Shown in pieces: positions 26,318-41,816 of a stretch of 64,000 bases of DNA; the stretch's first letter is position 1, and every line of letters begins with the position of its first letter. The notes under the pieces are model-generated. The model had not been told where the DNA came from. It saw nothing but the letters and a program-made list of their open reading frames with translations, and made no database searches. The translations under genes and the position numbers were made by a program. The DNA comes from Candidatus Lambdaproteobacteria bacterium RIFOXYD2_FULL_56_26 (lineage in GTDB: Bacteria > SAR324 > XYD2-FULL-50-16), in NCBI GenBank assembly GCA_001783715.1, contig MFNF01000001.1, positions 1 to 64,000 of the forward strand, read 5' to 3'.

Positions 26318-28288
26318 ATGAAATCGCTCCAACGACTCCTCCCCATCGCCCTGGCCCTCCTGACTTTGGTTGGATGTTCCAGCCAAGGCAGCTTGACCCA
26401 CGCCGTTTTTGAACGAGAGGAGGCCAGCTTTCGGGAACTGGACCTTTCGATGAAAGACCTTTACCAAGCCTTGCACGAAGGTTCGACCGATGCTCAATTT
26501 AAGGCGGTCAACGCCTTGCGTCACTTGGCCGAATGGTCCGACGAACCGGGGAAACGGCAGATGGCTGCCCGTGGTTTGGTGGTTGCCGCTGCTTTTGTTT
26601 CCGATGGCGATGCCCGGGACCGGGCGGATTCGAGGGCGGCCAAGATCCTGACCGGCTCGGACCGGGCCTTGTCCGAAGAAGTGCTGTGGGCCAAAACCAA
26701 AGTGGCGACCGGCGCACTGGGACTTACTTTGGACCAAGGAACCCCGGACGAAACCTTTGTGATGGCCGACCCCGATGAACGAGAAGAGGCGGTTGTCTTT
26801 TTGACCAAACACTTTGGAGACCTGGACGAGTCCCTCCAGTACCAAACGGCGCTGGCCTTCTCGGCAATCTTGTCCAATCCGCCCAACTGCTTCAAAAAGG
26901 GTTACAAAATGGTTACCCGCACCGTGACCGAAACGGTGCCCAACCCTTTGTATGTTGAGCCCAAAGAAGGCAAGGCCCCCATGGCCGGGGTGCCTAAAAT
27001 GATCACCAAGTCCAAGATCGTCACCGAAGAAGACAAGTCCCAGGTCGCTTGCGCCAAAGACGATGCCAAGACCCAAGAAAGCTGGAAAACGGACTTGGTT
27101 GAAGAAATCAAGGACAGCGTTGGCTACGGCGAACTGCCCCAGTATGTTTCTGCCGCCCTGCTCGCCGCCGCCGCCAATCTGGCCTATGTAGAGGACAAAA
27201 AGTTTGCCTCCAAGGCAATGCAAGGTTGGGAAGAAGACGGAATCGTAACCAAAGAGCGGCTCCCCTTGCTGCAAGGGGCGATCAACAAGTCCAAGGGCTT
27301 TTACCCGGACCTTTACCGTGGCAGCTTTGATCGCTCGGCCGTGGATGGACCTAAATCCGAAAAGTCCAAGATCGATGAAAGTCAACCGGCAACGGTCATC
27401 GCTGAACAGTTGAAAGCCGCCCAAAAGGCTTCGGAAGAGGCGGAGAGCAAGGTTCTCTCCAATGCCGCCTTCGAGGCTCGGCCCAACTTCTCCAATCCCG
27501 GTGCCTATCCGGGCAACGGCTTTTGGCTGAACAACGCCGACGAGATCCTCCGCCGCCAGTTGTTCAACCCCAGCACGAGGCTGGCCAGTGGCAACGTCCC
27601 CGACGGGGAAACCGGCTTTGTCCCCCAGGAATGGATCAATTTTAAGGGCTACGATGGCAGTGCCGAGATGGTGGAGCTAAAAGGCTTGCTCTACCAATCC
27701 ACCCTCGGGGCGCTCAACCGCGGGTACCGGATCGAAAACCCCCGAGGGCTGGACAAGGTTTTTAAGGGTAAGCTGGACAACTTGGTCAACGCCAAGGAGT
27801 GGGATGTTGAACGAGAACTGGCGCTGCTCAAGGCCTCTTGGCCCAGTTTGGCCGATGGCGGAGCCAATTTTGGCGAGCTGGAAAAGGCCCTGCTTGAAGG
27901 AGCGGAGCGAAACAAGGAAAACCTTTATTTGCAGCAACGCTACCTCTTGGCCTTGGTCGCCGGGCTTTCGGCTTACCCCAAGGAAGAGCCTTCGGTCTGC
28001 AAAGCCTTGGAAGGCAGAGATGTCTATACCCAACTGGCCGCCTTTGAACAGGTGCAGTCTTACCCGGCCTATCGAAAACCCGGCAAGGCTTCGCTGGTCA
28101 AGAGCCCCCGGTTCTGTGGAGTTGCCTTGTACGACAATGGGCTGGACAAGGACAAGGTGATGGCCCCGGTAGCACCGGTGCCTGCACCGATCCAAGCGCC
28201 CAAGGAAGAGCCCAAACCCCAGGCCGATGAGCCTGCGCCTCTTGAGCCCGCAACGGAACAACCTGTCCCTGCCGCTCCGGCTGGCTAG
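26318..28288 (+). CDS. Large lipoprotein of unknown function
   Basis: A 656-residue protein with a lipoprotein signal: hydrophobic helix then LVGC, lipid-attached Cys at 20. The first half is rich in helices of HEAT or TPR appearance (EGSTDAQFKAVNALRHLAEWSD, ARDRADSRAAKILTGSD) followed by mixed segments; the last 45 residues are Pro/Glu/Ala-rich. A clear AGGATAGG lies before the ATG. It starts 14 bases after the barrel gene and ends before another lipoprotein, so the three look co-transcribed. I do not recognise a family. Confidence 0.72.
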   Translation: MKSLQRLLPIALALLTLVGCSSQGSLTHAVFEREEASFRELDLSMKDLYQALHEGSTDAQFKAVNALRHLAEWSDEPGKRQMAARGLVVAAAFVSDGDARDRADSRAAKILTGSDRALSEEVLWAKTKVATGALGLTLDQGTPDETFVMADPDEREEAVVFLTKHFGDLDESLQYQTALAFSAILSNPPNCFKKGYKMVTRTVTETVPNPLYVEPKEGKAPMAGVPKMITKSKIVTEEDKSQVACAKDDAKTQESWKTDLVEEIKDSVGYGELPQYVSAALLAAAANLAYVEDKKFASKAMQGWEEDGIVTKERLPLLQGAINKSKGFYPDLYRGSFDRSAVDGPKSEKSKIDESQPATVIAEQLKAAQKASEEAESKVLSNAAFEARPNFSNPGAYPGNGFWLNNADEILRRQLFNPSTRLASGNVPDGETGFVPQEWINFKGYDGSAEMVELKGLLYQSTLGALNRGYRIENPRGLDKVFKGKLDNLVNAKEWDVERELALLKASWPSLADGGANFGELEKALLEGAERNKENLYLQQRYLLALVAGLSAYPKEEPSVCKALEGRDVYTQLAAFEQVQSYPAYRKPGKASLVKSPRFCGVALYDNGLDKDKVMAPVAPVPAPIQAPKEEPKPQADEPAPLEPATEQPVPAAPAG

Positions 28289-28324
28289 GCAAAGATGAGT
28301 CACTTGGAATTTGAGGAATCGAAC

Positions 28325-29689
28325 ATGAACAACTTTAGACCCAAATACAAGAGAGCCCAGGCTTGGATTCTGACCGGAGCCTTGGCCTTTCTCTTTGGCT
28401 GCGCCTCGGCAGACAGCGGCAAGTCTTGTGCTCAAAAGTTGGACGAAAAGGATTTTGTTACCGTCAGCGAAGACACCGCTTGCTCCACCTACGAGCGGGG
28501 CAGTGCCTACCTGGGCCGGGCCGGGTTTTTGTTCGCCAACTTCCTCAAGGACGGGGCTTCGGACAATTTCCGGGCCGCTTTGGGAATCCCTTCGGATGCC
28601 TCTTGGGACACCTGGGATGGGGTCACCTACTACAACCAGGCTCGCATTTTGACCGGCGACGCTTCGACCGACCGCTACTATGGTTTGACCCGCAGCAATG
28701 CGGACATTGAGATCCACTACTTTACGACTTTGGCCAAACTGTTGGCCGAAACCTACATCAAGCTGGACACCAACGGGAACGGGACGATTTCGGAAGCGGA
28801 GACCCAAGCCTTTACAGCCCTGAACTCCACGGCCGCCCTTGACTACGATAAAAACGACATCTCGGCCACCAACTACCTGCAAATGGTCAAGACCGGCGAG
28901 TCCACTTCCTACATCCTGGACACCGGTTCTACCGCCTCTACTTCGGCCAACTGCTGGTCAGACAGTAACTATGACGGGATTGAAGCGGTCAACGGGACTG
29001 CTGGTACCGATGTAATTTCTTGTGGGCTTGCCGCCACTACGGCTTCGAACCAGACCATTTCCGGCAGTTGTGCAGTGATTGCCAAAGTGGACGGGGTGCA
29101 AAAGATGTTCACCACTACCATCAGCTCCAGCAACAGCGTCTTGAGTTTGACCGAAGGGATTGTTTCATCCATTTCCAGCCTCAGTTCGGACATGAGTTCC
29201 CTGGGGTTGGCCAGTGACTCGGACTTGCGTCAGGCGCTCGATGACTTTACTACCAAGATCGACAACGGTGGGACCTGTAGCAGCAGTACCAGCGTTTCGG
29301 AGGTCAACCAGTTGCTGACCCTGATCAACAATGCCAACAAAACTGCGATCACCACTCCGTCCAATTATGCCAGCACCAACAAAATCAAAACCAGCGCCTT
29401 GACCAGCAGTTCGGACAACTCGGTGACCATCCCCAGCAATTTTACCGTCACCACTGCTGCGGGTACCACCATCACCTTCAGCTGCACCAACAGCACCGAC
29501 TTGGATGCTAGATTGGTCTTCAAGATCAGCACCAATACCTATACCCCGGATTACGACAGCGCCAAGGACTCCATCAAGACAACCTTCAACAGTCTCTACA
29601 ACCTGCAACGTGACAGTGCCGGGACCAAAAAGGCAGTGGCCAAGGGAGACAACATCATCTCCTTTGAAGAGCTTTTGTGTATGCAATGA
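28325..29689 (+). CDS. Lipoprotein with a canonical EF-hand loop, Ser/Thr-rich
   Basis: From the ATG at 28325 (GAGGA about nine bases upstream) this is a 454-residue lipoprotein with the lipobox LFGC (Cys26). Residues 148-159 read DTNGNGTISEAE, a textbook calcium-binding EF-hand loop. The rest is rich in Ser, Thr, Asn and Asp, with several Cys that could form disulfides, and its codon composition is less GC-rich than its neighbours. It follows the large lipoprotein by 36 bases. A surface-exposed, calcium-stabilised protein is plausible; the family is unknown to me. Confidence 0.7.
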   Translation: MNNFRPKYKRAQAWILTGALAFLFGCASADSGKSCAQKLDEKDFVTVSEDTACSTYERGSAYLGRAGFLFANFLKDGASDNFRAALGIPSDASWDTWDGVTYYNQARILTGDASTDRYYGLTRSNADIEIHYFTTLAKLLAETYIKLDTNGNGTISEAETQAFTALNSTAALDYDKNDISATNYLQMVKTGESTSYILDTGSTASTSANCWSDSNYDGIEAVNGTAGTDVISCGLAATTASNQTISGSCAVIAKVDGVQKMFTTTISSSNSVLSLTEGIVSSISSLSSDMSSLGLASDSDLRQALDDFTTKIDNGGTCSSSTSVSEVNQLLTLINNANKTAITTPSNYASTNKIKTSALTSSSDNSVTIPSNFTVTTAAGTTITFSCTNSTDLDARLVFKISTNTYTPDYDSAKDSIKTTFNSLYNLQRDSAGTKKAVAKGDNIISFEELLCMQ

Positions 29690-30944: not shown

Positions 30945-33044
30945 TTAGTATTCGATGCAGCCCAAGGATTCGATCTGGACCTCGGCGGCGATTTCGTTGT
31001 GACTCAACACCGCCAAGTTGGGCACTGCCCGCTCGGTCAACCTCTTGATCTGGACCCTCGCCTGGGGACCGCAGAGGATCACCGGCTGGTAGTTGTAAAC
31101 GTTGAAGGCCGAGATGCCCGCCTCAATGGCCGCAATAATCGCTTGGGCCTCTTCGGGGGCGATGCCCAGGTAGGTGCCTTGCCCGGTGTCCTGGATGGCT
31201 CCGACGATCTTGTTTTCCATTTCTTGGGACAAGGTCATGACCGGCAGGATTCCTTCCTGGTTCTGGAACTGCCGGGTGATGCTTCGGCTCAAACCTTCTC
31301 TGACATGTTCGACTAGGATCTCGGGCACCTTGGTGTATTGGGCGGTGTCGGCCAAGACCTCCAGGATGCTGTTCATGTCCCGGATGGAAACGTTTTCCTT
31401 GAGCAGCGCCTGCAACACCCGCTGGACGGTGCCCAGACCCAACAGATCGGGGACCAGTTCCTCGACCAGCTTCGGTTCGTTTTTGCTCACCTTGTCCAAA
31501 ATCTTCTGGACCTCTTGGCGGCCCAAGAAATCGGAGGCATGGGAGCGGATGATTTCGGTCAGGTGGGTACTGACCACCGTGGGGATGTCCACCACGGTGT
31601 AACCGGCGATTTGGGCGGATTCCTTGTCCGCCTCGCTGATCCAAATGGCCGGGAGCCCAAAGGCCGGTTCGACCGTGGCGATTCCGTCCATTTGGCCTTC
31701 CACCTCTCCGGCCTGCATGGCCAGGAAGTGGTCGATCATCATTTCCCCTTTGCCGACCTCGATGCCTTTGATCACGATGGAGTAGGCACCCGGTTCCAGT
31801 TGCAGGTTGTCTTTGATGTGGACCGGCGGGACCACAAAGCCCATGTCCAGGGCCACTTGCCGCCGGATCGCCTTGACCCTTTCGAGCAGCTCCCCATCTT
31901 GGTCTTGGTCCACCAGAGGGATCAGGGCGTAACCCAGCTCCAGGCCCAAGGTATCGATGGGCAAAAGGTCCACGATCGAGTCGCTGGTCTCTTCTGCCGC
32001 CTCGGCTTGGTGGCTGTCCACCTGGGCGAGTTTTGTCCGCTCCGCCTCTTCCCGTTTGCTTTTGAGGTTGAAGGCGACCACCCCCAATAAACCGGAGAGC
32101 ATAAAAAAGGTTACTTTGGGCATTCCGGGGACCATACCAAACAAAAACAAGGTTCCCGAAGCGAGTCCCATGGACATGGGGTTGCCGAACAACTGGAGGT
32201 TAAAGTCCACACCCAAGCGGTTCTGGGCCCCGGCCTTGGCCACCACCATACCGGCGGCGATGGAGATCACCAGCGCCGGAATCTGGCTGACCAGACCGTC
32301 ACCGATGGTCAAGCTGGTGAAGGTCATGGCGGCATTCATGATGTCCATGTGGTAGAACATCACCCCCAAGACCAAACCCCCGGCAATGTTGATTCCGGTG
32401 ATGATCAAACCGGCGATTGCGTCTCCCCGGACGAATTTGGAGGCACCGTCCATGGCCCCGAAAAAGTCCGCTTCCCTTTGGATTTCTTTGCGCCTGCGTT
32501 GGGCTTCGGTTTCATCGATATTGCCGGCGTTGAGGTCGGCATCGATAGCCATTTGTTTCCCCGGCATTGCGTCCAAGGTAAACCTTGCCGCTACCTCGGC
32601 GATCCGGCCCGAACCTTTGGTAATGACGATAAAGTTGATCAACACCAGGATCAGGAAGACGATGATCCCGATCAGGTAGTTCCCGCCGACCACGTAGGAC
32701 CCGAAGGCCTGAATCACATGTCCGGCCGCTGCGGTGCCCTGTTTCCCGTTGGTCAAAATAGCCCGGGTACTGGCGACGTTCAAAGAAAGTCGGGCCAGCG
32801 TGGTGACCAACAAAATGGAAGGGAAGACCGAGAAGTCCAGCGGCTTGACGCTGTACAAGGCGACAAAGAGGATCAAGACGCTGAAGGTGATGTTCACCGC
32901 CAAGAGGATGTCCAGGATCACCGGCGGCAAGGGCAGGATCATCACTGCCAAAATCAGGATCATGCCGACCGCCAGCAGGATGTCCGGGTTAAAGAGCCTG
33001 CCGGGTGCGTTCGCTTTAGCGTTCAAGGGGATCGAAATGGCCAT
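30945..33044 (-). CDS. flhA: Flagellar export gate protein FlhA
   Basis: A 699-residue protein of the FlhA/type III secretion family. The N-terminal half has eight or so membrane helices (about 20-325) and contains the conserved cytoplasmic FHIPEP-type loop region (SLNVASTRAIL, GSGRIAEVAARFTLDAMPGKQMAIDADLN). The C-terminal cytoplasmic ring domain follows (about 360-695), with LQLEPGAYSIVIKG and VRQF-like segments. It drives export of flagellar rod, hook and filament subunits. It stands apart from flhB-fliR, which lie 6.5 kb away. The start at 33044 matches the family, and the gene runs toward a bidirectional terminator. Confidence 0.96.
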   Translation of the reverse strand: MAISIPLNAKANAPGRLFNPDILLAVGMILILAVMILPLPPVILDILLAVNITFSVLILFVALYSVKPLDFSVFPSILLVTTLARLSLNVASTRAILTNGKQGTAAAGHVIQAFGSYVVGGNYLIGIIVFLILVLINFIVITKGSGRIAEVAARFTLDAMPGKQMAIDADLNAGNIDETEAQRRRKEIQREADFFGAMDGASKFVRGDAIAGLIITGINIAGGLVLGVMFYHMDIMNAAMTFTSLTIGDGLVSQIPALVISIAAGMVVAKAGAQNRLGVDFNLQLFGNPMSMGLASGTLFLFGMVPGMPKVTFFMLSGLLGVVAFNLKSKREEAERTKLAQVDSHQAEAAEETSDSIVDLLPIDTLGLELGYALIPLVDQDQDGELLERVKAIRRQVALDMGFVVPPVHIKDNLQLEPGAYSIVIKGIEVGKGEMMIDHFLAMQAGEVEGQMDGIATVEPAFGLPAIWISEADKESAQIAGYTVVDIPTVVSTHLTEIIRSHASDFLGRQEVQKILDKVSKNEPKLVEELVPDLLGLGTVQRVLQALLKENVSIRDMNSILEVLADTAQYTKVPEILVEHVREGLSRSITRQFQNQEGILPVMTLSQEMENKIVGAIQDTGQGTYLGIAPEEAQAIIAAIEAGISAFNVYNYQPVILCGPQARVQIKRLTERAVPNLAVLSHNEIAAEVQIESLGCIEY

Positions 33045-33324
33045 GCGGTAACCTAGAGGTTGGGTGTAAGGTCGTTTCTATTTGGAAATGCAAGGGCCGT
33101 ACAAAAACAAGACCCCTGGCGGTTCTAGCCGCAATTTTCAACCCTTCCTTGTCATTGTTTCCACCCGTCCTTGGGTGGGGCTATATCTATCACCTATGAA
33201 AAAAACGGGCCAAAGGTGAGCAATCCCCCCCAAAGGGGAGAAAGAAAAAAAACTTGTCCTGACCCCTGGAGGTATGAAAGAGAAGAGAAAAGTTTGTTTG
33301 GTTAATTCTGCCCCAGGAGAAAGA

Positions 33325-33855
33325 ATGAAGTTTCCAAAAATCAGCTCCAATTGGATCGAAAAACTCAAGTGGCTGGGCAAGGTGGCCATGGGGGCCCTGC
33401 CATTGTTGCTGGCGGCCAACGAGTATTACGCCAAGACTGCCGAAGCCAAGCGAAATCGGGCTTTGGAGGCGGTTTACCTGATGGACGATGCCAATTTTTT
33501 GCAAGAGACCAACCAGCTGGTGGCGGAAGTGCAGCTGGCCCAGGAATACCCGGAGGTCTTTTCCCTGCTCGACCAAAACCCCGAATTTCGTAGGGCCTTC
33601 TGGTCCCGGTACTCCAGTGTGATGAACCATTACCACCGGATCATCACCCTGTATGGAGCCGACCTTGCCGACCGCTGTGTGCTCAAGCACAGTTTCGGTT
33701 CGGCGTTGGACTCCCTGTTCCAGGTGGAGATGTCGGTCCGTGCGCTCCAGGAAGAGGACCAGGACTCTGCCAGCCTGACTTCCAAGGACTTTTTGGCAGT
33801 GCTCACCCACATGGCCACCAAAGGCGAAGAAGAATGCGTCAAGGAGGTCTTGTGA
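33325..33855 (+). CDS. Unknown 176-residue protein
   Basis: A 176-residue protein started at the ATG at 33325, which has an AGGAG six bases upstream; an in-frame ATG 17 codons earlier lacks such a site. The N-terminus is basic (KFPKISSNWIEKLKWLGK) with a short hydrophobic segment (about 21-31) that could be a membrane anchor. The rest is helical and charged, without motifs I know. The stop overlaps the GTG of the next gene. It is divergent from flhA; a 280-bp gap between them holds a small hairpin near 33162-33180 and no clear promoter. Confidence 0.65.
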   Translation: MKFPKISSNWIEKLKWLGKVAMGALPLLLAANEYYAKTAEAKRNRALEAVYLMDDANFLQETNQLVAEVQLAQEYPEVFSLLDQNPEFRRAFWSRYSSVMNHYHRIITLYGADLADRCVLKHSFGSALDSLFQVEMSVRALQEEDQDSASLTSKDFLAVLTHMATKGEEECVKEVL

Positions 33856-34109
33856 AGACAAACAGGCTTTTGGCCCTGGCCCTGCTTTTGCCCAGTCTGG
33901 CTTGGGGACAGGATTCGCCGGGGTCTCGGTGGGGGTATTCGGTCAAAAACAGCAACCTGCCTTTGGTCCAGGAAACCCAGTTTTCTGCGGAACAGCTCAA
34001 ACGGCAAGAGGCGCTGGCCAAGGCCTGTAAAGAGGAACTGCGGGGCCACAACCAACGGGAAGCGTTGGACTGCCTACTCAAGGGGCTGGCGGAGCTGGAA
34101 AAGTCCTGA
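33852..34109 (+). CDS. Small secreted protein of unknown function
   Basis: From the GTG at 33852, with AAGGAGG six bases upstream and GTGA overlap with the preceding stop, this gives an 85-residue protein. A signal peptide (KTNRLLALALLLPSLAWG) leads to a short mature helix-rich part containing two cysteines (KACKEEL and DCLLKGL) that may form a disulfide. Translational coupling ties it to the 176-residue gene. The family is unknown. Confidence 0.65.
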   Translation: MKTNRLLALALLLPSLAWGQDSPGSRWGYSVKNSNLPLVQETQFSAEQLKRQEALAKACKEELRGHNQREALDCLLKGLAELEKS

Positions 34110-34284
34110 CAGGCTCCGCCGAGAGGCCTTGGGTTGGGCGGACCGGTAAAAATATTTTTTTTCTGGTCTGCGGCCAGGGTTCCTAAAAAGCGTCTGAGGG
34201 GGTTTTTTGTGTCCCCAAACAAAAAGAGTTGTTGGGGTCCCTTTAAAAAACAAAACCCTAAAAAAATAGAGGTGCCGCAACAAA

Positions 34285-34300
34285 GATTGCCTTGGCAATC
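34285..34300. promoter_or_regulatory. Perfect palindrome upstream of the decarboxylase/FAD gene
   Basis: GATTGCC and GGCAATC flank a 2-bp centre, a perfect 7-2-7 inverted repeat of operator type. It lies 12 bp before a possible -35 box and 90 bp before the start codon. The region before it (34110-34284) has low-GC runs and a weak hairpin at 34212-34238 but no gene. Confidence 0.5.
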
Positions 34301-34312
34301 GATGAATTTTGT

Positions 34313-34340
34313 TTGCTTCAAAGTAAGACTGGTGTAGGAT
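34313..34340 (+). promoter_or_regulatory. Possible promoter of the decarboxylase/FAD gene
   Basis: TTGCTT (34313-34318) and TAGGAT (34335-34340) are 16 bp apart, just downstream of the palindrome at 34285-34300. A repressor or activator bound at the palindrome could act on it. Confidence 0.4.
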
Positions 34341-34390
34341 GCGCACAGTTCTATGTAATTTGATGCAACCCAAATTCCGAACGCCCTGCC

Positions 34391-37300
34391 ATGACGCTAC
34401 CCAACTATATCAACCACACCGGTGAACTTTGTTTTGAACCTCCCTTCGATTTACTGGGCACAAACCTCTATGCCCTGCCGGTCAAGGGAGACGCACAAAA
34501 GGTTCAGGCTACGGTGAACCAGTTTTTTGGTCCGGCTTTGGCCGGGACCGGGATCCGCTACCAAGCCCTGGGCGACTTTGTGATGCTCGCCCTGGCCTTT
34601 TGCGAAAAGGCCACCAGCACTGACCCCAAGGCCCGAGAGACCGGCTGGATGACCGAAAACGACTGGGCCTTTTGGGTGCCTTTGTTGCGGTACAACGGGG
34701 ACAAACCGGAACGGTTGGTTTGGTTCATGCCCTTTTTGTTTGTCAACAGCCCCTTTGCCATGGCTTGCGGAAGGGAGCCTTACGGCTTCCAGAAAACCAT
34801 GGCCCAATTCTCCCCAACCACTGCTCCAGCGGACCCTACCGATTTTGAGGTGACCGCTTGGGCGTTCAAGCAGTTTGGGGTGGAACAAGAGGCGGTGGAA
34901 CAGTTGATCTTCTCCCTCAAGGCGACCCCCAATCCGGTCAGCAAAATCGAGGCGTTGCTCAGCGACCTGCAAGCCATGGCCAGCGACCTGATCAACCTGG
35001 GCGAGATCGGCATTCTGGGTCCTTGGGAGTTGCTCAAGGCCCTGTTGGGGGACTTGGTCAAAGGGCAGATCCCCATTGTGCTGCTCAAACAGTTTCGGGA
35101 TGCCGTCTCCCCCAAGGCGGCCTGCTACCAAGCGGTGGTCGAGGCCCCGGCCCAGATCCTGGACCTCAAAAGCGTGGGCGGGTTGGACAAGATTTTTACC
35201 CTCCACAACCCCAACCTTGCCAGTTTTCCTTTCACCGATGCGCTCGGGGTTCCCTCCGGCGCAACGCCAATTGGCCCCGGCCTTCACATCTACATGGACT
35301 TTAGGATTGAAATGGGCAAGATCATTGCTGAAAAAAAACAGGAAAATCCAAAAAAAGTAGCGGTTTTGGGCGGCGGATTGGGGGCTTTGACCACCTTGGC
35401 CTCGATTGTTACGGCACCGGAGTGGAACAACCAGTATGAATTTACCGTTTATGAGCGCAGTTGGCGGATCGGCGGGAAGGGGGCCAGCGGTAGAAATGCC
35501 CAGGAAAACCAAGCCATTGAAGAACACGGTCTGCACATCTGGCTGGGCTTTTACAACAACGCCTTCCACCTGATCAACGGGGCCTACCAAGCGACCTTGG
35601 ACCTCCTGGGCTACGGGGACTTGGGGCTCACCTACAAGGACTTCTTCTCCCCGACCGATCTGGTGGTCTTCCAGGAAAACCTCAATGCCTACAAAGGCAA
35701 ACCTGGGTACGACTGGAAGGTCTGGCCGATCAAGTTTCCCGACAACTCCGAAGAACCGGGCACCCCGGACGAATTTTTGGGGCCCATCGACTACGCCGAG
35801 ATGTTGATCGAAATGATCCTGGAGATCTTTGAGGAGCAAAAGGAACAACTTTTGGGCGAGTTTGACTCAGAGGAAGACCAAGGACTGTTCGGCTGGGTTG
35901 AAAACAAAATCGAAGGGGCGGTGGCGGCCCCTTTGATCCAGAAGATCGACCAGCTGCTCCACGACCTCTTGGAGGCGATCCAAAAGGTAGCCAAAAAGAT
36001 CGAGGAAACCGAAGAAAAAGACTTGGCCGGACTGGAGTCTTGGATCGAAACCTTGATCGGCGATGTTCTACAGGTGATCGGTTGGCTGCAAAACCTGATG
36101 CAGGCCATCTTGATGCCGGTGTTGCTCCGCTCGGACTTGTTGCGCCGGATCTGGATGATCATTGATTTTGGCTTGGCCGTTGCCCAAGGGATGTTCAAGG
36201 ACCACATCTTCACCCGTGGCTTTCGCAACATCAACGACCTGGACTTTTATGCCTGGCTCAAACAAAACGGAGCCGGGGTCTTCACCATCAAAGGGCCTTT
36301 GATCCAAGCGGTGTATGACATCGTCTTCGGCTACAAGAACGGCAACAACAATGAACCGGCCTTGGCCGCCGGGGTGGGGCTGTACGGTTCCCTGCGGATG
36401 GTAATGACCTACAAGGGGCACATCTTCTGGCGGATGAACATGGGCATGGGAGACGTGATCTTTACGCCCTTTTATGAGCTGTTGACCTCCAAAGGAGTGA
36501 AGTTCAAACTCTTCCAGGAAGTGAAGGAACTGGTGATGAACGCCGATGGGACCGGCATTGAGCAGATCAAGATGAACAACCTGATCAAGCTCAAGGACCC
36601 GGCCAAGGAGTACGACCCCTTTGTCACCCTGCCCTACCACGTCCCCCAAAAGCCGGGCTTGACCTTGCAGTGGCCCTGCTGGCCCAGTGAGATCAATTGG
36701 GACCAGATTGATCCGGCCCAGGCGGCGAAGCTGCAAAACTTTTGGGCCACCAAGATGCTCAACCTAGAGTCCAACTGGCTGCCTTGGAAGGACGAATCGG
36801 TGCCTTATGTCCTCAAACAGGGGGAGGACTATGATTTGGTGCTCTGCGGGATCACCCCCCGTGCCTTGGAGCCGATTTCCGGGCAGTTGTATGCCAAAGT
36901 GCCAGGGTGGAAGGAGATGCTTGACCACAGCAAGACGGTGGTGACCCGCTGTTCGGAACTCTGGTTCCACAAGTCCTCCCAAGAGTTGGGCTTTAATCCA
37001 GGAGACCCGGAATACAAGAACCTGGAGCCGATCATCGGAGGTTATGCCGAGCCTTACGGTAGCGTGGCCGACCTGACCCACCTGATCGTCCAGGAGGAGT
37101 GGAACGCCGGGGCTGCGCCCAAGTATCTGGCCTACCCCTGCGGTCCGCTGGAGATGGGCACCATGGCTCCGACCAGTGATTCGGACTTCCCCAAAAAGAC
37201 CTATGATGCCATGGTGGCCGATTCCTGGGTTTGGCTCAACCAAAACGCCAAGGGGCTCTGGCCCAATGCCTGTAATCCCGACGGCAGCCTGAATCCCAAT

Positions 37301-37567
37301 GAATTGGTTTACCAGTACTGGCGGGCGGGGATCAACTATGGGGAGCATTATGTCCTCACCGTGCCCGGTTCTCCACAGTTCCGGCACCAGCCCAACGACT
37401 TTGGGGTGGCCAACCTGTTCATCGCCGGGGACTGGACCCAAAACCTGATCAATGCAGGTTGCGTGGAAGGGGGAGTGATTTCGGGGCTCAACTGTGCGAG
37501 GTTCCTCACCGGCTGGGCGATCCCGATCTACAATGCTTCGGTCAAGGATTTGGAGGAAGGGCCTTAA
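34391..37567 (+). CDS. Acetoacetate-decarboxylase-like domain fused to FAD amine-oxidase-type oxidoreductase
   Basis: A 1058-residue fusion. Residues 1 to about 310 resemble the acetoacetate decarboxylase superfamily: MPFLFVNSPFAMACGREPYGFQK (113-135), with Lys135 where the Schiff-base Lys sits in that family. A flavin domain follows with the dinucleotide motif VAVLGGGLGA (323-332), the E355 ribose-binding acid and YERSWRIGGKGASGRN, as in phytoene-desaturase and amine-oxidase flavoproteins. The C-terminal NLFIAGDWTQNLINAGCVEGGVISG closes the FAD site. A Glu-rich helical insertion lies at about 470-580. No signal peptide. It is probably transcribed alone from the promoter near 34313, with a terminator at its end. 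The substrate is unknown; a lipid, polyketide or terpenoid is plausible. Confidence 0.8.
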   Translation: MTLPNYINHTGELCFEPPFDLLGTNLYALPVKGDAQKVQATVNQFFGPALAGTGIRYQALGDFVMLALAFCEKATSTDPKARETGWMTENDWAFWVPLLRYNGDKPERLVWFMPFLFVNSPFAMACGREPYGFQKTMAQFSPTTAPADPTDFEVTAWAFKQFGVEQEAVEQLIFSLKATPNPVSKIEALLSDLQAMASDLINLGEIGILGPWELLKALLGDLVKGQIPIVLLKQFRDAVSPKAACYQAVVEAPAQILDLKSVGGLDKIFTLHNPNLASFPFTDALGVPSGATPIGPGLHIYMDFRIEMGKIIAEKKQENPKKVAVLGGGLGALTTLASIVTAPEWNNQYEFTVYERSWRIGGKGASGRNAQENQAIEEHGLHIWLGFYNNAFHLINGAYQATLDLLGYGDLGLTYKDFFSPTDLVVFQENLNAYKGKPGYDWKVWPIKFPDNSEEPGTPDEFLGPIDYAEMLIEMILEIFEEQKEQLLGEFDSEEDQGLFGWVENKIEGAVAAPLIQKIDQLLHDLLEAIQKVAKKIEETEEKDLAGLESWIETLIGDVLQVIGWLQNLMQAILMPVLLRSDLLRRIWMIIDFGLAVAQGMFKDHIFTRGFRNINDLDFYAWLKQNGAGVFTIKGPLIQAVYDIVFGYKNGNNNEPALAAGVGLYGSLRMVMTYKGHIFWRMNMGMGDVIFTPFYELLTSKGVKFKLFQEVKELVMNADGTGIEQIKMNNLIKLKDPAKEYDPFVTLPYHVPQKPGLTLQWPCWPSEINWDQIDPAQAAKLQNFWATKMLNLESNWLPWKDESVPYVLKQGEDYDLVLCGITPRALEPISGQLYAKVPGWKEMLDHSKTVVTRCSELWFHKSSQELGFNPGDPEYKNLEPIIGGYAEPYGSVADLTHLIVQEEWNAGAAPKYLAYPCGPLEMGTMAPTSDSDFPKKTYDAMVADSWVWLNQNAKGLWPNACNPDGSLNPNELVYQYWRAGINYGEHYVLTVPGSPQFRHQPNDFGVANLFIAGDWTQNLINAGCVEGGVISGLNCARFLTGWAIPIYNASVKDLEEGP

Positions 37568-37578
37568 GGAAAAAGGAG

Positions 37579-37608
37579 AGCCGGGGGCCGGAAGGTCCCC
37601 GGTTTTTT
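37579..37608 (+). terminator. Rho-independent terminator after the decarboxylase/FAD gene
   Basis: A GC-rich 9-bp stem (37581-37589 with 37594-37602) with a tetraloop-like GGAA segment is followed by TTTTTT. It begins about a dozen bases after the stop codon and lies between convergent genes. Confidence 0.8.
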
Positions 37609-37642
37609 GTTTTGCCACTCCCGCCCACTGGACGGGGGCAGC

Positions 37643-39313
37643 CTATTCGGAGAGCAACAGGTTCTCCAAGACCTTCAAAAGTTTCTCTTGGGACAAAGGC
37701 TTGTTCAAGTAGCCGTTGAACTTAAAGTCCGTTGCCCGCTCGTCCAACTCCTTTTTGGAATAAGAAGAAAGCGTAACCACCCAAGGTTTGGCAGGAAAGC
37801 TTTGCCGGAGTTCCCGGGTGGTTTCGATCCCGTTTTTGACCGGCATGTCGATGTCCACCAAAAAGAGGTCGTATTTCCCGGCATAAAGCTTCTGCAAGGC
37901 CTCGGCCCCGTTTTCCACCATCTCGAAGTCCAGATTCAGGTCCTTGAGCGCCTTGATGGTGGTTTCCTGGTGCAGGGCGTTGTCTTCGGCCACCAGTATC
38001 TTTAATGGAGCAATCCTTTTGAGTAGGGTTTCCTTGTCCATGCCGCTATGCTCCACAATGTTGGCCGCCGGGACGGTGAACCAGAATTGACAGCCCTCGC
38101 CCTTTTCGCTTTCAACCCCGATCCGGCCCCCGCTTTTTTCAGTAAACTCCTGGCATAAAACCAGCCCCAAACCGGTCCCGGATTCGCTGTTGGTCCCCGG
38201 AGTGGAGGAGACCTTTTCGCCGGGTTTAAACATCTTTTTCTGTTGCTCTTGGTTCAGCCCCACCCCGGTGTCCTTGACCCCAAACTTGAGGCTGCCTTCA
38301 ACCCGTTCCAAGGTGAAGGTGATTGAGCCTCCCTTGGGGGTGAACTTGAGGGCGTTGCCGGTCAGGTTGCGGACCACGGTGGTGATCATCGAAGGGTCGG
38401 CGTGGGCGAACATCGGCTCGGGCGGATCAAACAGCAGCTCAATCCCCTTCTGGTTTGCCTGGGCAGAGTAGAGGTTGAGGATGTCCAGGATCAGCGTTAC
38501 GGCGTTGAAGTTTTCCGGGTGGTATTCCAGTTGTCCCTTTTGGCTCCGGGCCCAGGTCAAGAGGTTTTCCAAAAAAGCGTAGGTGTTGCGGCTACTGACC
38601 CGCACCGCTTCGAGCATCTTCGGGTCGATGATGCCATCATCCCCGATCATCTCGTTGAAAAGCACCGAGATGCTGCCGATCGGCCCCCTTAGGTCGTGGG
38701 CGATGATCGAAAAAAACTTGTCCTTGGTGGCGTTGGCTTCCTTCAGCTCCGCCCGCAACCGAATCTCCCGGACCATGGTGGCGTACCGGTACATACCGGC
38801 CATGTAGCTGATCAGGGTGATGGTGGAATAAAAGAAGAACGTTGCCCATTGGGTCGGGCTGTCCAGGTTCTTCTCAAAAAAGGCCAAATAGGACCCAAAA
38901 ATCAAGGCATGGGTCGAAAAGGCCAGGGACATCCAAAAGGGGCTCCACAAGGGGATGATCCCCATGGAAACCGGCGCTAGGCTGAAACTACCGACATAAA
39001 AATAAAAGAAGTAGCCGTCGGTCTGGTGGAGAATGGGCAAGAAAAAAAGCAACACCATGTTGAGTTCGATGTAGCTCAACAGTTGCATGTGCTGGGGAAA
39101 GTTTCTTTTGAACAGGAAAACCAGCGCAAGGTTGGCAACAAAGCCAAACCGGAAGAGGTAGGTTTCCCCGTGGATGAATTGAATGTCGAGGAAATACCAG
39201 ACCACAAAAATGCCGGTCAGGCCGTAGAGGAACCAAGCAGAATTGATGTTGTATTCGTTCAGGTTCGCAAGGATTGATGCTTCTTCAATCCGTTTTTTTT
39301 CCGCCGCCAACAT
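37643..39313 (-). CDS. Membrane-bound hybrid histidine kinase
   Basis: A 556-residue hybrid sensor kinase. Six membrane helices (about 27-180) form the sensor part; no periplasmic domain is obvious. A HisKA domain has the phospho-His at H206 (SIIAHDLRGP). The HATPase domain carries the N-box VVRNLTGNALKF (313-324), DTGVGL and GTGLGL. A C-terminal receiver (about 437-553) has Asp487 in LFLVDIDMP and Lys in LNKPLS. It lies behind flhB on the same strand, 186 bp away, with a palindrome just before its start. Its output partner is not in the window. Confidence 0.9.
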   Translation of the reverse strand: MLAAEKKRIEEASILANLNEYNINSAWFLYGLTGIFVVWYFLDIQFIHGETYLFRFGFVANLALVFLFKRNFPQHMQLLSYIELNMVLLFFLPILHQTDGYFFYFYVGSFSLAPVSMGIIPLWSPFWMSLAFSTHALIFGSYLAFFEKNLDSPTQWATFFFYSTITLISYMAGMYRYATMVREIRLRAELKEANATKDKFFSIIAHDLRGPIGSISVLFNEMIGDDGIIDPKMLEAVRVSSRNTYAFLENLLTWARSQKGQLEYHPENFNAVTLILDILNLYSAQANQKGIELLFDPPEPMFAHADPSMITTVVRNLTGNALKFTPKGGSITFTLERVEGSLKFGVKDTGVGLNQEQQKKMFKPGEKVSSTPGTNSESGTGLGLVLCQEFTEKSGGRIGVESEKGEGCQFWFTVPAANIVEHSGMDKETLLKRIAPLKILVAEDNALHQETTIKALKDLNLDFEMVENGAEALQKLYAGKYDLFLVDIDMPVKNGIETTRELRQSFPAKPWVVTLSSYSKKELDERATDFKFNGYLNKPLSQEKLLKVLENLLLSE

Positions 39314-39336
39314 CGTGATACCCCTCTACAGCCGCC

Positions 39337-39352
39337 TCACCCTAGAGGGTGA
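39337..39352. promoter_or_regulatory. Palindrome just upstream of the hybrid kinase
   Basis: TCACCCT and AGGGTGA flank a 2-bp AG centre, a perfect 7-2-7 inverted repeat 24 bp upstream of the kinase start. A weaker one (ATCCT-AGG-AGGAT) lies at 39408-39420. Either may be an operator; the position also allows control of translation. Confidence 0.4.
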
Positions 39353-39499
39353 AGAACACCCCGATTAGACCAAGGAACCGGACCTAAAAGCAAGAAAAAA
39401 CTGAGAAATCCTAGGAGGATCAAGCCCACCGACGGAGGGCTCTACCTGTACGGAAAAACCAAACCCTAGGCCCCAGGAAGGGAGGGGGGGAGGGGTCTT

Positions 39500-40573
39500 T
39501 CAGCTGCGCCGCTTCTTTTTCTTGGCCTTAAAGACGAAGGCCAGGATCTCGGCTACTGCACGGTAAAAAGCTTCGGGAATGGTGTCCCCCACTTCGACTT
39601 GAAAGTAGAGACCCCTGGCAACGGTTGGGTTTTGGTAGATCGCCACCCCGTTTTCTCCGGCGATTTCGATGATTCTGCGGGCGATGTGGTCCGCCCCTTT
39701 GGCGATGACCTGCGGGGCGGCCATGCTGTCCCGGTCATACTTCATGGCGATGGCAAAGTGGGTCGGGTTGGTGACCACCACGTCGGCCTTGGGGACCTCC
39801 TGCATCTGCCGGGCTTGGCTCATTTGGGCCTGGATTTGGCGGATCTTGGCCTTCAGTTGCGGGTCCCCTTCGGACTGTTTCATCTCCTCCTTCAGGTCCT
39901 GGCGACTCATCTTGAGCTTTTGTTCCAAGTCCCACCGTTGGAAAAAATAGTCGGCCATGGCCAGCACCAACAGGGCCAAAAAGAGCCGAAAACTGAAGAC
40001 CCCAAAGATCTCCGCCGAAATCTCCAAGAGTGCTCTGGGATCTTGGTCGATCAGGTTTTGCAATTGTTGGGTGTATTCAACAAAGGTGTAGTAGCCGATG
40101 TAGCCGATCAAGCCCATCTTGAAGATGGATTTGAGCAGTTCGTTGAACGCCTGTTTGGAGAAAATGCGCCCAAAACCGGCCAAGGGGCTCAGCTTGTTGA
40201 ATTTGGGTTGGATCGGTTTGAGGGTGATTTGAAAGCCGACCTGCAAAACACTGGAGAAGACCCCCACCAAAATGGCGGTGATAAAAAAGGGACCCACCAG
40301 CACCGTGGCTTGGTTGAAAAAGCCCCAGGTCAACTGCTCCAACATGGGGATACTCAGATCCCCTTGGTTGAGGTTGACGAAGGCGTAACGAAAACTCTCC
40401 TGGAAGGAGGTCAACATTCTCCCGGAGCCAAAATAAAAGAGCAAAAGGAAACCGCCGAGCATCGCCACTGAGCTCAGTTCCTTGGAGTAGGCGACCTGTC
40501 CTTCCTCCCTCGCATCGTCACGCCGTTTTTGCGAGGGGGCCTCGGTTTTTTCTTCCGATCCCGATTCAGCCAT
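39500..40573 (-). CDS. flhB: Flagellar export switch protein FlhB
   Basis: A 357-residue protein with an N-terminal basic region (EKTEAPSQKRRDDAREEGQVAYSKE), four membrane helices (about 35-215) and a cytoplasmic domain containing the self-cleavage motif NPTH in VVTNPTHFAIAMKYD. FlhB switches export from hook to filament substrates. The start lies immediately after the fliR stop, with no gap, suggesting coupled translation. Confidence 0.96.
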   Translation of the reverse strand: MAESGSEEKTEAPSQKRRDDAREEGQVAYSKELSSVAMLGGFLLLFYFGSGRMLTSFQESFRYAFVNLNQGDLSIPMLEQLTWGFFNQATVLVGPFFITAILVGVFSSVLQVGFQITLKPIQPKFNKLSPLAGFGRIFSKQAFNELLKSIFKMGLIGYIGYYTFVEYTQQLQNLIDQDPRALLEISAEIFGVFSFRLFLALLVLAMADYFFQRWDLEQKLKMSRQDLKEEMKQSEGDPQLKAKIRQIQAQMSQARQMQEVPKADVVVTNPTHFAIAMKYDRDSMAAPQVIAKGADHIARRIIEIAGENGVAIYQNPTVARGLYFQVEVGDTIPEAFYRAVAEILAFVFKAKKKKRRS

Positions 40574-41359
40574 TTATTTTGCCATCAAGTTTAGCATTTC
40601 AATCACTTGCACCTCCAGCCCGGAGAAGGCCTTGTGCATCGCCCCGGTGGTATAGGGCATGCCGGTCATCAAAAAGAGGAATCCCAACAGGATCGTCAGA
40701 GGCATGCCCACCACAAAAATGTTCATTTGGGGCATGGCCCGGGCCATGAAACCCAAGATCAAGTTGGCGAACAGCAAGGCCACAATGAAGGGAGACCCCA
40801 GCTTGACCCCCAGGATAATCATGTCGCCGCCCAATCGCAACAAGAACTCCAGGATGTTGGGGTTAAAGGCAAAGGTCCCAATGGCCACCTTGTCGTAGCT
40901 GAGGGCGATCACCTCAAAAAAGGTGTGGTGTCCATCGATGATTACAAAGAGGAGGGTGGCCAGCAGTCCCTTGAAGCTGGAGATCATTGAGACTTGGGTT
41001 TGGGACTGGGGGTCCATGACGTTGGCCAAGGAAAGGCCCATTTGGAACCCGATCACCGTCCCCGCAAAGTCAACTGCCGCAAAGGTTGCCCGAGGAACCA
41101 CCCCCAAAAGCAGGCCGATCATGGTCTCCCTGGTGGCCATCAAAAGGTAGTAGGAGGCGTTCCAGTTTTGGGCGATCGGAGTGTTGGGCAGGACGGCAAA
41201 GAGCATCCAACTGACCATCAAGACCATGAACAGCCGCAAACGGCGAGGCACGTTGGCGGAGCTGAGGATCGGTGCGGTCACGAACAAACCGCCGATCCGC
41301 AAGACGACCAGGATGAAATTAAAATATTGGTCCGGCGAAAACTGCAGTACGCTTTCCAT
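40574..41359 (-). CDS. fliR: Flagellar export gate protein FliR
   Basis: A 261-residue membrane protein from the ATG at 41359 (ESVLQFSPDQYFNFILVVLR), with six or so helices and the family segments SSANVPRRLRLFMVLMVS, GFQMGLSLANVMDPQSQTQVS and MPQMNIFVVGMPLTILLG. It forms the export gate core with FliP and FliQ, which are not in this window. The 57 upstream in-frame codons are not FliR-like. It lies between dksA and flhB on one strand. Confidence 0.94.
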   Translation of the reverse strand: MESVLQFSPDQYFNFILVVLRIGGLFVTAPILSSANVPRRLRLFMVLMVSWMLFAVLPNTPIAQNWNASYYLLMATRETMIGLLLGVVPRATFAAVDFAGTVIGFQMGLSLANVMDPQSQTQVSMISSFKGLLATLLFVIIDGHHTFFEVIALSYDKVAIGTFAFNPNILEFLLRLGGDMIILGVKLGSPFIVALLFANLILGFMARAMPQMNIFVVGMPLTILLGFLFLMTGMPYTTGAMHKAFSGLEVQVIEMLNLMAK

Positions 41360-41414
41360 GGCGGAAGGCCTGGAAGGGGGGAAGGTGGCCTTTTGCCGCC
41401 ACCTAAGGTTGGGT

Positions 41415-41816
41415 TTACAGTTCTTCCTCTTCGGAATCCATAAACCCGGGCAGGCCGCTGTCCAAGTTGAGGCTGTCCTTGCCCTGGACCCGTTCCTGCT
41501 CGTTTTTGCAGTCCACGCAAAGCTCGGCAAAGGGCATGACCATCAGCCGTTTCTTGGAGATGTCCGCCCCACATTCCTCGCAAACCCCGTAGGTGTCTTC
41601 CTCGATCCTTTCCAGGGCTTGGCGGATCTGCTCCAATTTACGGCGGTCCCGCTCGCAAAGCAGTTGGTACAGTTCCCGGTCCCGCTCTTCCGAGGCCAGG
41701 TCGATGCTATCGCCAATGTCGTGGGTAATGGCGCTGGCAGACTGGCTGCGCTCCAGTTCGATCTCATCGATAATTTTTTTCTGCATATCGGTGAGCATTT
41801 TTTTGATTTCTTTCAT
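41415..41816 (-). CDS. dksA: DksA/TraR-family transcription factor
   Basis: A 133-residue protein with a long N-terminal coiled coil, the DxxDxA tip motif (DSIDLA, 36-41) and a C4 zinc finger (C79, C82, C100, C103). DksA enters the RNA polymerase secondary channel and acts with ppGpp on rRNA and amino-acid promoters. The acidic tip residues needed for activity are present. A Glu-rich tail follows the finger. It is 55 bp upstream of fliR, probably in one transcript with fliR-flhB. Confidence 0.92.
   Translation of the reverse strand: MKEIKKMLTDMQKKIIDEIELERSQSASAITHDIGDSIDLASEERDRELYQLLCERDRRKLEQIRQALERIEEDTYGVCEECGADISKKRLMVMPFAELCVDCKNEQERVQGKDSLNLDSGLPGFMDSEEEEL

Follow-up and report, generated by a model that had tools for sequence, protein, structure and literature searches.

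The acetoacetate decarboxylase (ADC) superfamily (PF06314) includes decarboxylases (PDB 3C8W, 3BGT, and 3BH2), an aldolase-dehydratase (4ZBO/6EEJ), MppR (4JM3), and Swit_4259 (5UPB). In the Clostridium decarboxylase, Arg29 and Glu61 are tied to acetoacetate decarboxylation, and Lys115 is the Schiff-base lysine. Phytoene desaturase (PDS) of the plant and cyanobacterial type, exemplified by the rice enzyme (5MOG), has zeta-carotene desaturase and the hydroxysqualene dehydroxylase HpnE as sister families. Here, we analyzed a gene that joins these two known kinds of enzyme in a single polypeptide. The same two proteins are encoded by adjacent genes on plasmids of Azospirillum and Catenovulum, where they are annotated as “NAD(P)-binding protein” and “acetoacetate decarboxylase family protein”; the records name no function. 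In open-licence papers we found nothing on the pairing, on its repeated fusion, or on the linkage to giant sensors described below.

The gene lies in the window, by which we mean the whole 64,000-nucleotide (64-kb) stretch analyzed, positions 1 to 64,000 of contig MFNF01000001.1 of Candidatus Lambdaproteobacteria bacterium RIFOXYD2_FULL_56_26. See Table 1 for the coordinates of all features. The open reading frame was confirmed as real, and it agrees with the profile and fold matches on a 1058-residue fusion of an ADC-like domain to a PDS-like flavin domain, as proposed in the initial annotation of this DNA. The gene is flanked by fliR-flhB (39500–41530) on one side and flhA (30945–33044) on the other, and a histidine kinase-receiver gene (37643–39313) converges on it. 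An upstream 193-amino-acid ORF also lies in the interval between the flagellar genes (30945–41530 overall). Since flagellar export genes commonly sit together, the stretch between them looks inserted. Elsewhere in the window, two consecutive ORFs (26318–29689) carry signal sequences resembling those of lipoproteins and lack a confident Pfam match; the second gives only a weak EF-hand match.

The fusion protein is present in 2 of the 52 genomes of the phylum, a distribution that fits horizontal acquisition. With a sole copy in its genome, placed between flhB and flhA and apart from recognizable pathway genes, the gene could be read as a horizontally acquired orphan that now has little function or none. 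We regard this as most improbable, since the reading frame is intact, the FAD and Schiff-base residues are kept, a strong terminator follows, and the 62% identical relative in another genus is also intact. A viral origin was considered and rejected, as no viral contig was found to encode a relative.

Table 1. Coordinates of features of the fusion gene and its surroundings in the window.
Feature	Position	Strand	Evidence or remark
Perfect 7-2-7 palindrome GATTGCC-TT-GGCAATC	34285..34300	.	Operator role unsupported
Fusion protein ORF	34391..37567	+	Stop included; 62% identical full-length relative
ADC-fold half, residues 1–312	34391..35326	+	Fold match E 4.7e-14; profile-profile E 8e-12
Asp91 codon, Glu76 position of classical ADC	34661..34663	+	Acidic in 17/17 rows (Asp or Glu)
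Lys135 codon, predicted Schiff-base lysine	34793..34795	+	Aligned with ADC lysine; invariant in 17 rows
PDS-like FAD half, residues 320–1058	35348..37564	+	PF13450 and PF01593 above cut-off; 5MOG fold match E 2.6e-16
N-terminal dinucleotide-binding motif GGGLG, residues 327–331	35369..35383	+	Kept in 32 homologues
Variable helical segment with Glu-rich stretch, about residues 465–609	35783..36217	+	Model secondary structure; alignment gaps
C-terminal FAD motif GDW, residues 1013–1015	37427..37435	+	Gly and Trp kept in homologues
Intrinsic terminator	37575..37608	+	15-pair stem, -26.4 kcal/mol, z -3.9

The initial annotation had also credited the gene with a palindromic operator, a promoter, and a terminator of its own. 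The terminator is convincing. The palindrome exists, but the window holds 8 perfect 7-2-7 palindromes against about 3.9 expected (64000/4^7), its core has no second copy across the 3.08 Mb genome, and it was not seen upstream of the closest relative’s fusion. We therefore rejected it as an operator. No sigma-70-like site was found upstream of the fusion gene on the + strand.

Single-sequence searches recognized the domains of this protein weakly, and profiles and structure models make the case firm. The window protein scores 20.2 bits against PF06314, below the cut-off of 29.8, and searching the PDB with this one sequence gave no match; the Azospirillum and Qingshengfaniella homologues score above the PF06314 cut-off. 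A profile built from 17 ADC-like rows matches ADC-family sequences over the whole domain. We also modeled the structure of the N-terminal half (pLDDT 85); two structure analyses covered the alignment rows that were not plasmid-derived. All 24 of its fold matches at E < 0.001 are ADC-superfamily chains, and the N-terminal half has this fold.

Lys135, within GREPYGFQK, falls on the ADC Schiff-base lysine in separate alignments, as the initial annotation had it. It is the same residue in every one of the 17 rows, and together with its GRExxGFxK surroundings it forms the best-conserved part of the domain. The residue alignment with ADCs rests on retrieved sequences. The positions of Clostridium Arg29 and Glu61 hold Thr24 and Ala67, and no aligned relative has Glu at position 67. 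The loss of these equivalents makes simple decarboxylation less likely than other Schiff-base chemistry. The ADC half could nevertheless be a true beta-keto acid decarboxylase, with the flavin half oxidizing its product or making its substrate; the fold, the retained lysine, and the acid at the Glu76 position would all suit such an enzyme. We consider this unlikely, given the two replaced residues and a fold that is matched about equally well by decarboxylases, aldolase-dehydratases, and MppR. From these residues, the ADC half is likely to carry out Schiff-base chemistry, and a classical decarboxylase is the less likely form of it.

The flavin half has the PDS fold. Both Pfam families found in it are above their cut-offs, its structure model has a pLDDT of 91, and its best fold match is rice phytoene desaturase with a TM score of 0.79 by target length. 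No named family in the HMM libraries exceeded its cut-off across the full-length flavin half. The equivalog model for PDS/CrtP (TIGR02731) gave 18 bits against 569 required, and that for HpnE (TIGR03467) gave 32 bits against 283. The Glu-rich insert that had been noted in this domain is real and lies in a variable segment that is all-helical in the model.

We examined the neighborhoods of homologues in other genomes. Candidatus Lambdaproteobacteria RIFOXYD2_FULL_50_16 (hereafter G003), of the same family and another genus, encodes the full-length relative listed in Table 1, with the same start, MTxPxYIN. It also has a split copy, in which an ADC-like gene and a FAD gene lie on the same strand 96 bp apart; the FAD gene is cut by a contig end, and another G003 contig opens with the matching remainder. 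Catenovulum has separate genes in the order ADC then FAD. In Azospirillum the order is FAD then ADC with a 4 bp overlap, and Qingshengfaniella has a 968-amino-acid FAD-ADC fusion. Furthermore, the FAD family occurs in 23 of 195 genomes of a myxobacteria-like phylum (it looks like Myxococcota). There, the pair is encoded by separate genes in G732, G727, G728, and G708, as a FAD-ADC fusion in G771, G744, G698, and G694, and as an ADC-FAD fusion in G749. One phylum sample of 251 genomes contained no relative. Thus the separate homologues share context, rather than being unrelated single genes.

Several related loci carry further enzymes. In G732, two ADC-like and two FAD genes form a four-gene set, and G727 and G728 have the same layout with a putative second ADC-like gene. 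At one locus, a second, diverged ADC-like gene of 269 amino acids (L055:13993-14802, −) lies directly upstream of the ADC-like gene, so that the set there comprises two ADC-like and two FAD genes. A predicted oxidoreductase with an NAD-binding domain (PF00175; L067:8691-9578, +) sits just upstream of a FAD-ADC fusion and is a possible electron partner. Among FAD-only loci, one branch has the gene of a saccharopine-dehydrogenase-like NAD(P)-binding protein (L061:11685-12740, −) next to the FAD gene. The gene downstream of the Rufibacter FAD gene was tried as an ADC and rejected, as it belongs to a different family that is common to G003. Members of this second partner family (L023:9547-10401, −; L015:17129-18082, +) have 278–317 residues and no Pfam match, are 44% identical between G003 and Rufibacter, and replace the ADC half as partners of a separate FAD branch.

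Many FAD homologues lack an ADC-like gene in their vicinity. These, together with the branch that has another partner, indicate that the flavin half is able to function in the absence of the ADC half. Such homologues, and the loss of the classical catalytic Arg29 and Glu61, would be expected if the ADC-fold half had no catalytic role and served the flavoenzyme by binding a ligand or by regulating it. We find this very unlikely, because conservation in the domain peaks at an invariant Lys135 and its motif and because the domain also occurs as a free-standing gene.

A tree of 38 FAD halves shows that the two proteins were joined repeatedly. The window protein and the G003 fusion are sisters of the split G003 copy, the G749 ADC-FAD fusion is the sister of split Catenovulum, and the G771 fusion shares a clade with split Azospirillum and split G708. 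One common origin for all fusions was rejected (p-AU 2.9e-6), as was a single origin of each fusion order; the groups for these tests were chosen with knowledge of the tree. At least six changes between the fused and split states are needed on this tree, some of which may be due to paralogy instead of fresh fusion events. If the two proteins did not work together, their joining in both orders would be hard to explain. Its repetition in unrelated bacteria is strong gene-fusion evidence, from sequences only, that the two proteins share a pathway.

A FadL-type channel adjoins the Azospirillum pair and was seen in that lineage only. Additionally, five genomes (Azospirillum, G708, G771, G632, and G687) have a cluster with two FAD enzymes that belong to separate clades (supports 100 and 99), which suggests two successive flavin steps; loci L027:3846-11088, L065, L060, L068, and L016 show this arrangement. 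On the short G632 contig, the genes after the cluster (L027:11674-16897) resemble, judged by eye, those of an AAA protein, a protein with a TIR domain, and the specificity subunit of a type I restriction system.

A frequent neighbor is a giant sensor, which 17 of 30 loci have no more than about four genes away. It is mostly a Ser/Thr kinase or a nucleotide cyclase that carries an AAA ATPase. We know of no ligands for these giant dual-kinase and cyclase sensors. The architecture is Ser/Thr kinase-AAA-GAF-histidine kinase in G003 and Azospirillum, kinase-AAA-GAF in G732, G727, G728, and G744, and kinase-AAA-GAF-cyclase in Rufibacter. Qingshengfaniella and G708 have a cyclase-AAA form, six related loci and G698 have a kinase-AAA-TPR form, and on the short contig of G632 only a C-terminal GAF-histidine kinase part is present. 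In 15 myxobacteria-like genomes, a kinase-AAA sensor lies within 10 kb of 8 of 24 FAD clusters against 0.6 expected (p 8e-8), a statistic that ignores relatedness, with the 8 clusters coming from about three genera, and that uses a sensor profile seeded by loci chosen for adjacency and the best 57 candidates per genome. We take this figure as an indication. The stronger point is that the sensor recurs in separate phyla, namely in Lambdaproteobacteria, Azospirillum, Rufibacter, Qingshengfaniella, and the myxobacteria-like group. A defense system was also considered and rejected: no PADLOC model matches either enzyme half, and the displayed matches of the sensor fall on its kinase domain.

The recurrence in several phyla and the enrichment would both follow if the pair made or consumed a small hydrophobic signal read by the giant sensor encoded next to it, be this of the Ser/Thr kinase-AAA-(GAF-histidine kinase) or of the cyclase-AAA type, the window gene being a copy separated from its sensor. 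We hold this possibility only tentatively. The Ser/Thr kinase-AAA sensor has no match anywhere in the 64-kb window, and no giant sensor was seen beside the G003 fusion, the Catenovulum pair, or G749. Furthermore, regulation of the enzymes by the sensor would explain the adjacency equally well. An undescribed signaling module is likewise a speculative prospect. In such a module, a signal would be made from, or turned back into, a compound of lipid or isoprenoid origin by a Schiff-base enzyme together with one or two flavoenzymes of the PDS-like kind, and it would be read by a dual kinase (Ser/Thr and histidine) or by an AAA-domain nucleotide cyclase. The window protein would then be the module’s enzyme part, reduced to one polypeptide.

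Our preferred explanation, which we hold with middling confidence, is a bifunctional enzyme made from two joined neighboring genes of one pathway, whose Schiff-base and flavin steps would be linked and would act on a substrate that is probably hydrophobic. The PDS-like half would oxidize or redox-isomerize this substrate, probably an isoprenoid, polyene, or fatty chain. Lys135 of the ADC-fold half would form a Schiff base with a carbonyl that belongs to that compound or to its partner, and this half would then make, break, or rearrange a C–C bond next to the carbonyl. Aldol- or dehydration-type chemistry would be likelier here than simple decarboxylation. The fusion would keep the intermediate within one protein. 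We infer the chemistry of the two halves from fold and residues, and the link between them from comparative evidence. Both would act on one compound. That it is hydrophobic is suggested by the nearest flavoenzymes, which are of the PDS, zeta-carotene desaturase, and HpnE types, and by the FadL-type channel at the Azospirillum pair.

The decarboxylation or cyclization coupled to flavin oxidation that had first been proposed for this protein can thus be divided. Neighboring genes and repeated fusion in both orders strongly support the coupling of an ADC-type and a flavin step, and decarboxylation specifically is not supported, as the Arg29 and Glu61 equivalents are lost. The initial annotation had also seen no substrate clue in the neighbors; those in the window are indeed silent, but related loci give hints in the FadL-type channel, the second PDS-like flavoenzyme, and the giant sensors. 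Two vaguely annotated families become one testable enzyme system, and their frequent sensor neighbors offer a route to what these sensors perceive or control.

Compared with known systems, the ADC half is closest to the ADC superfamily, with which it shares the whole-domain fold and the Schiff-base lysine in its GRExxGFxK motif, at 11–15% identity in structural alignments. Unlike the superfamily, it is longer, lacks the Arg29 and Glu61 equivalents, has its own conserved LKQFR...ACYQA motif, and is fused to or paired with a flavoprotein. The flavin half shares its fold, FAD motifs, and an EHGLHI.GFY-like start with PDS. However, it is 12% identical to the rice enzyme and about 270 residues longer with its large helical insert, and it falls far below all equivalog cut-offs. 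The Azospirillum and Catenovulum plasmid pairs are 26–31% identical to the window protein over most of its length but are encoded by separate genes, in reverse order in Azospirillum.
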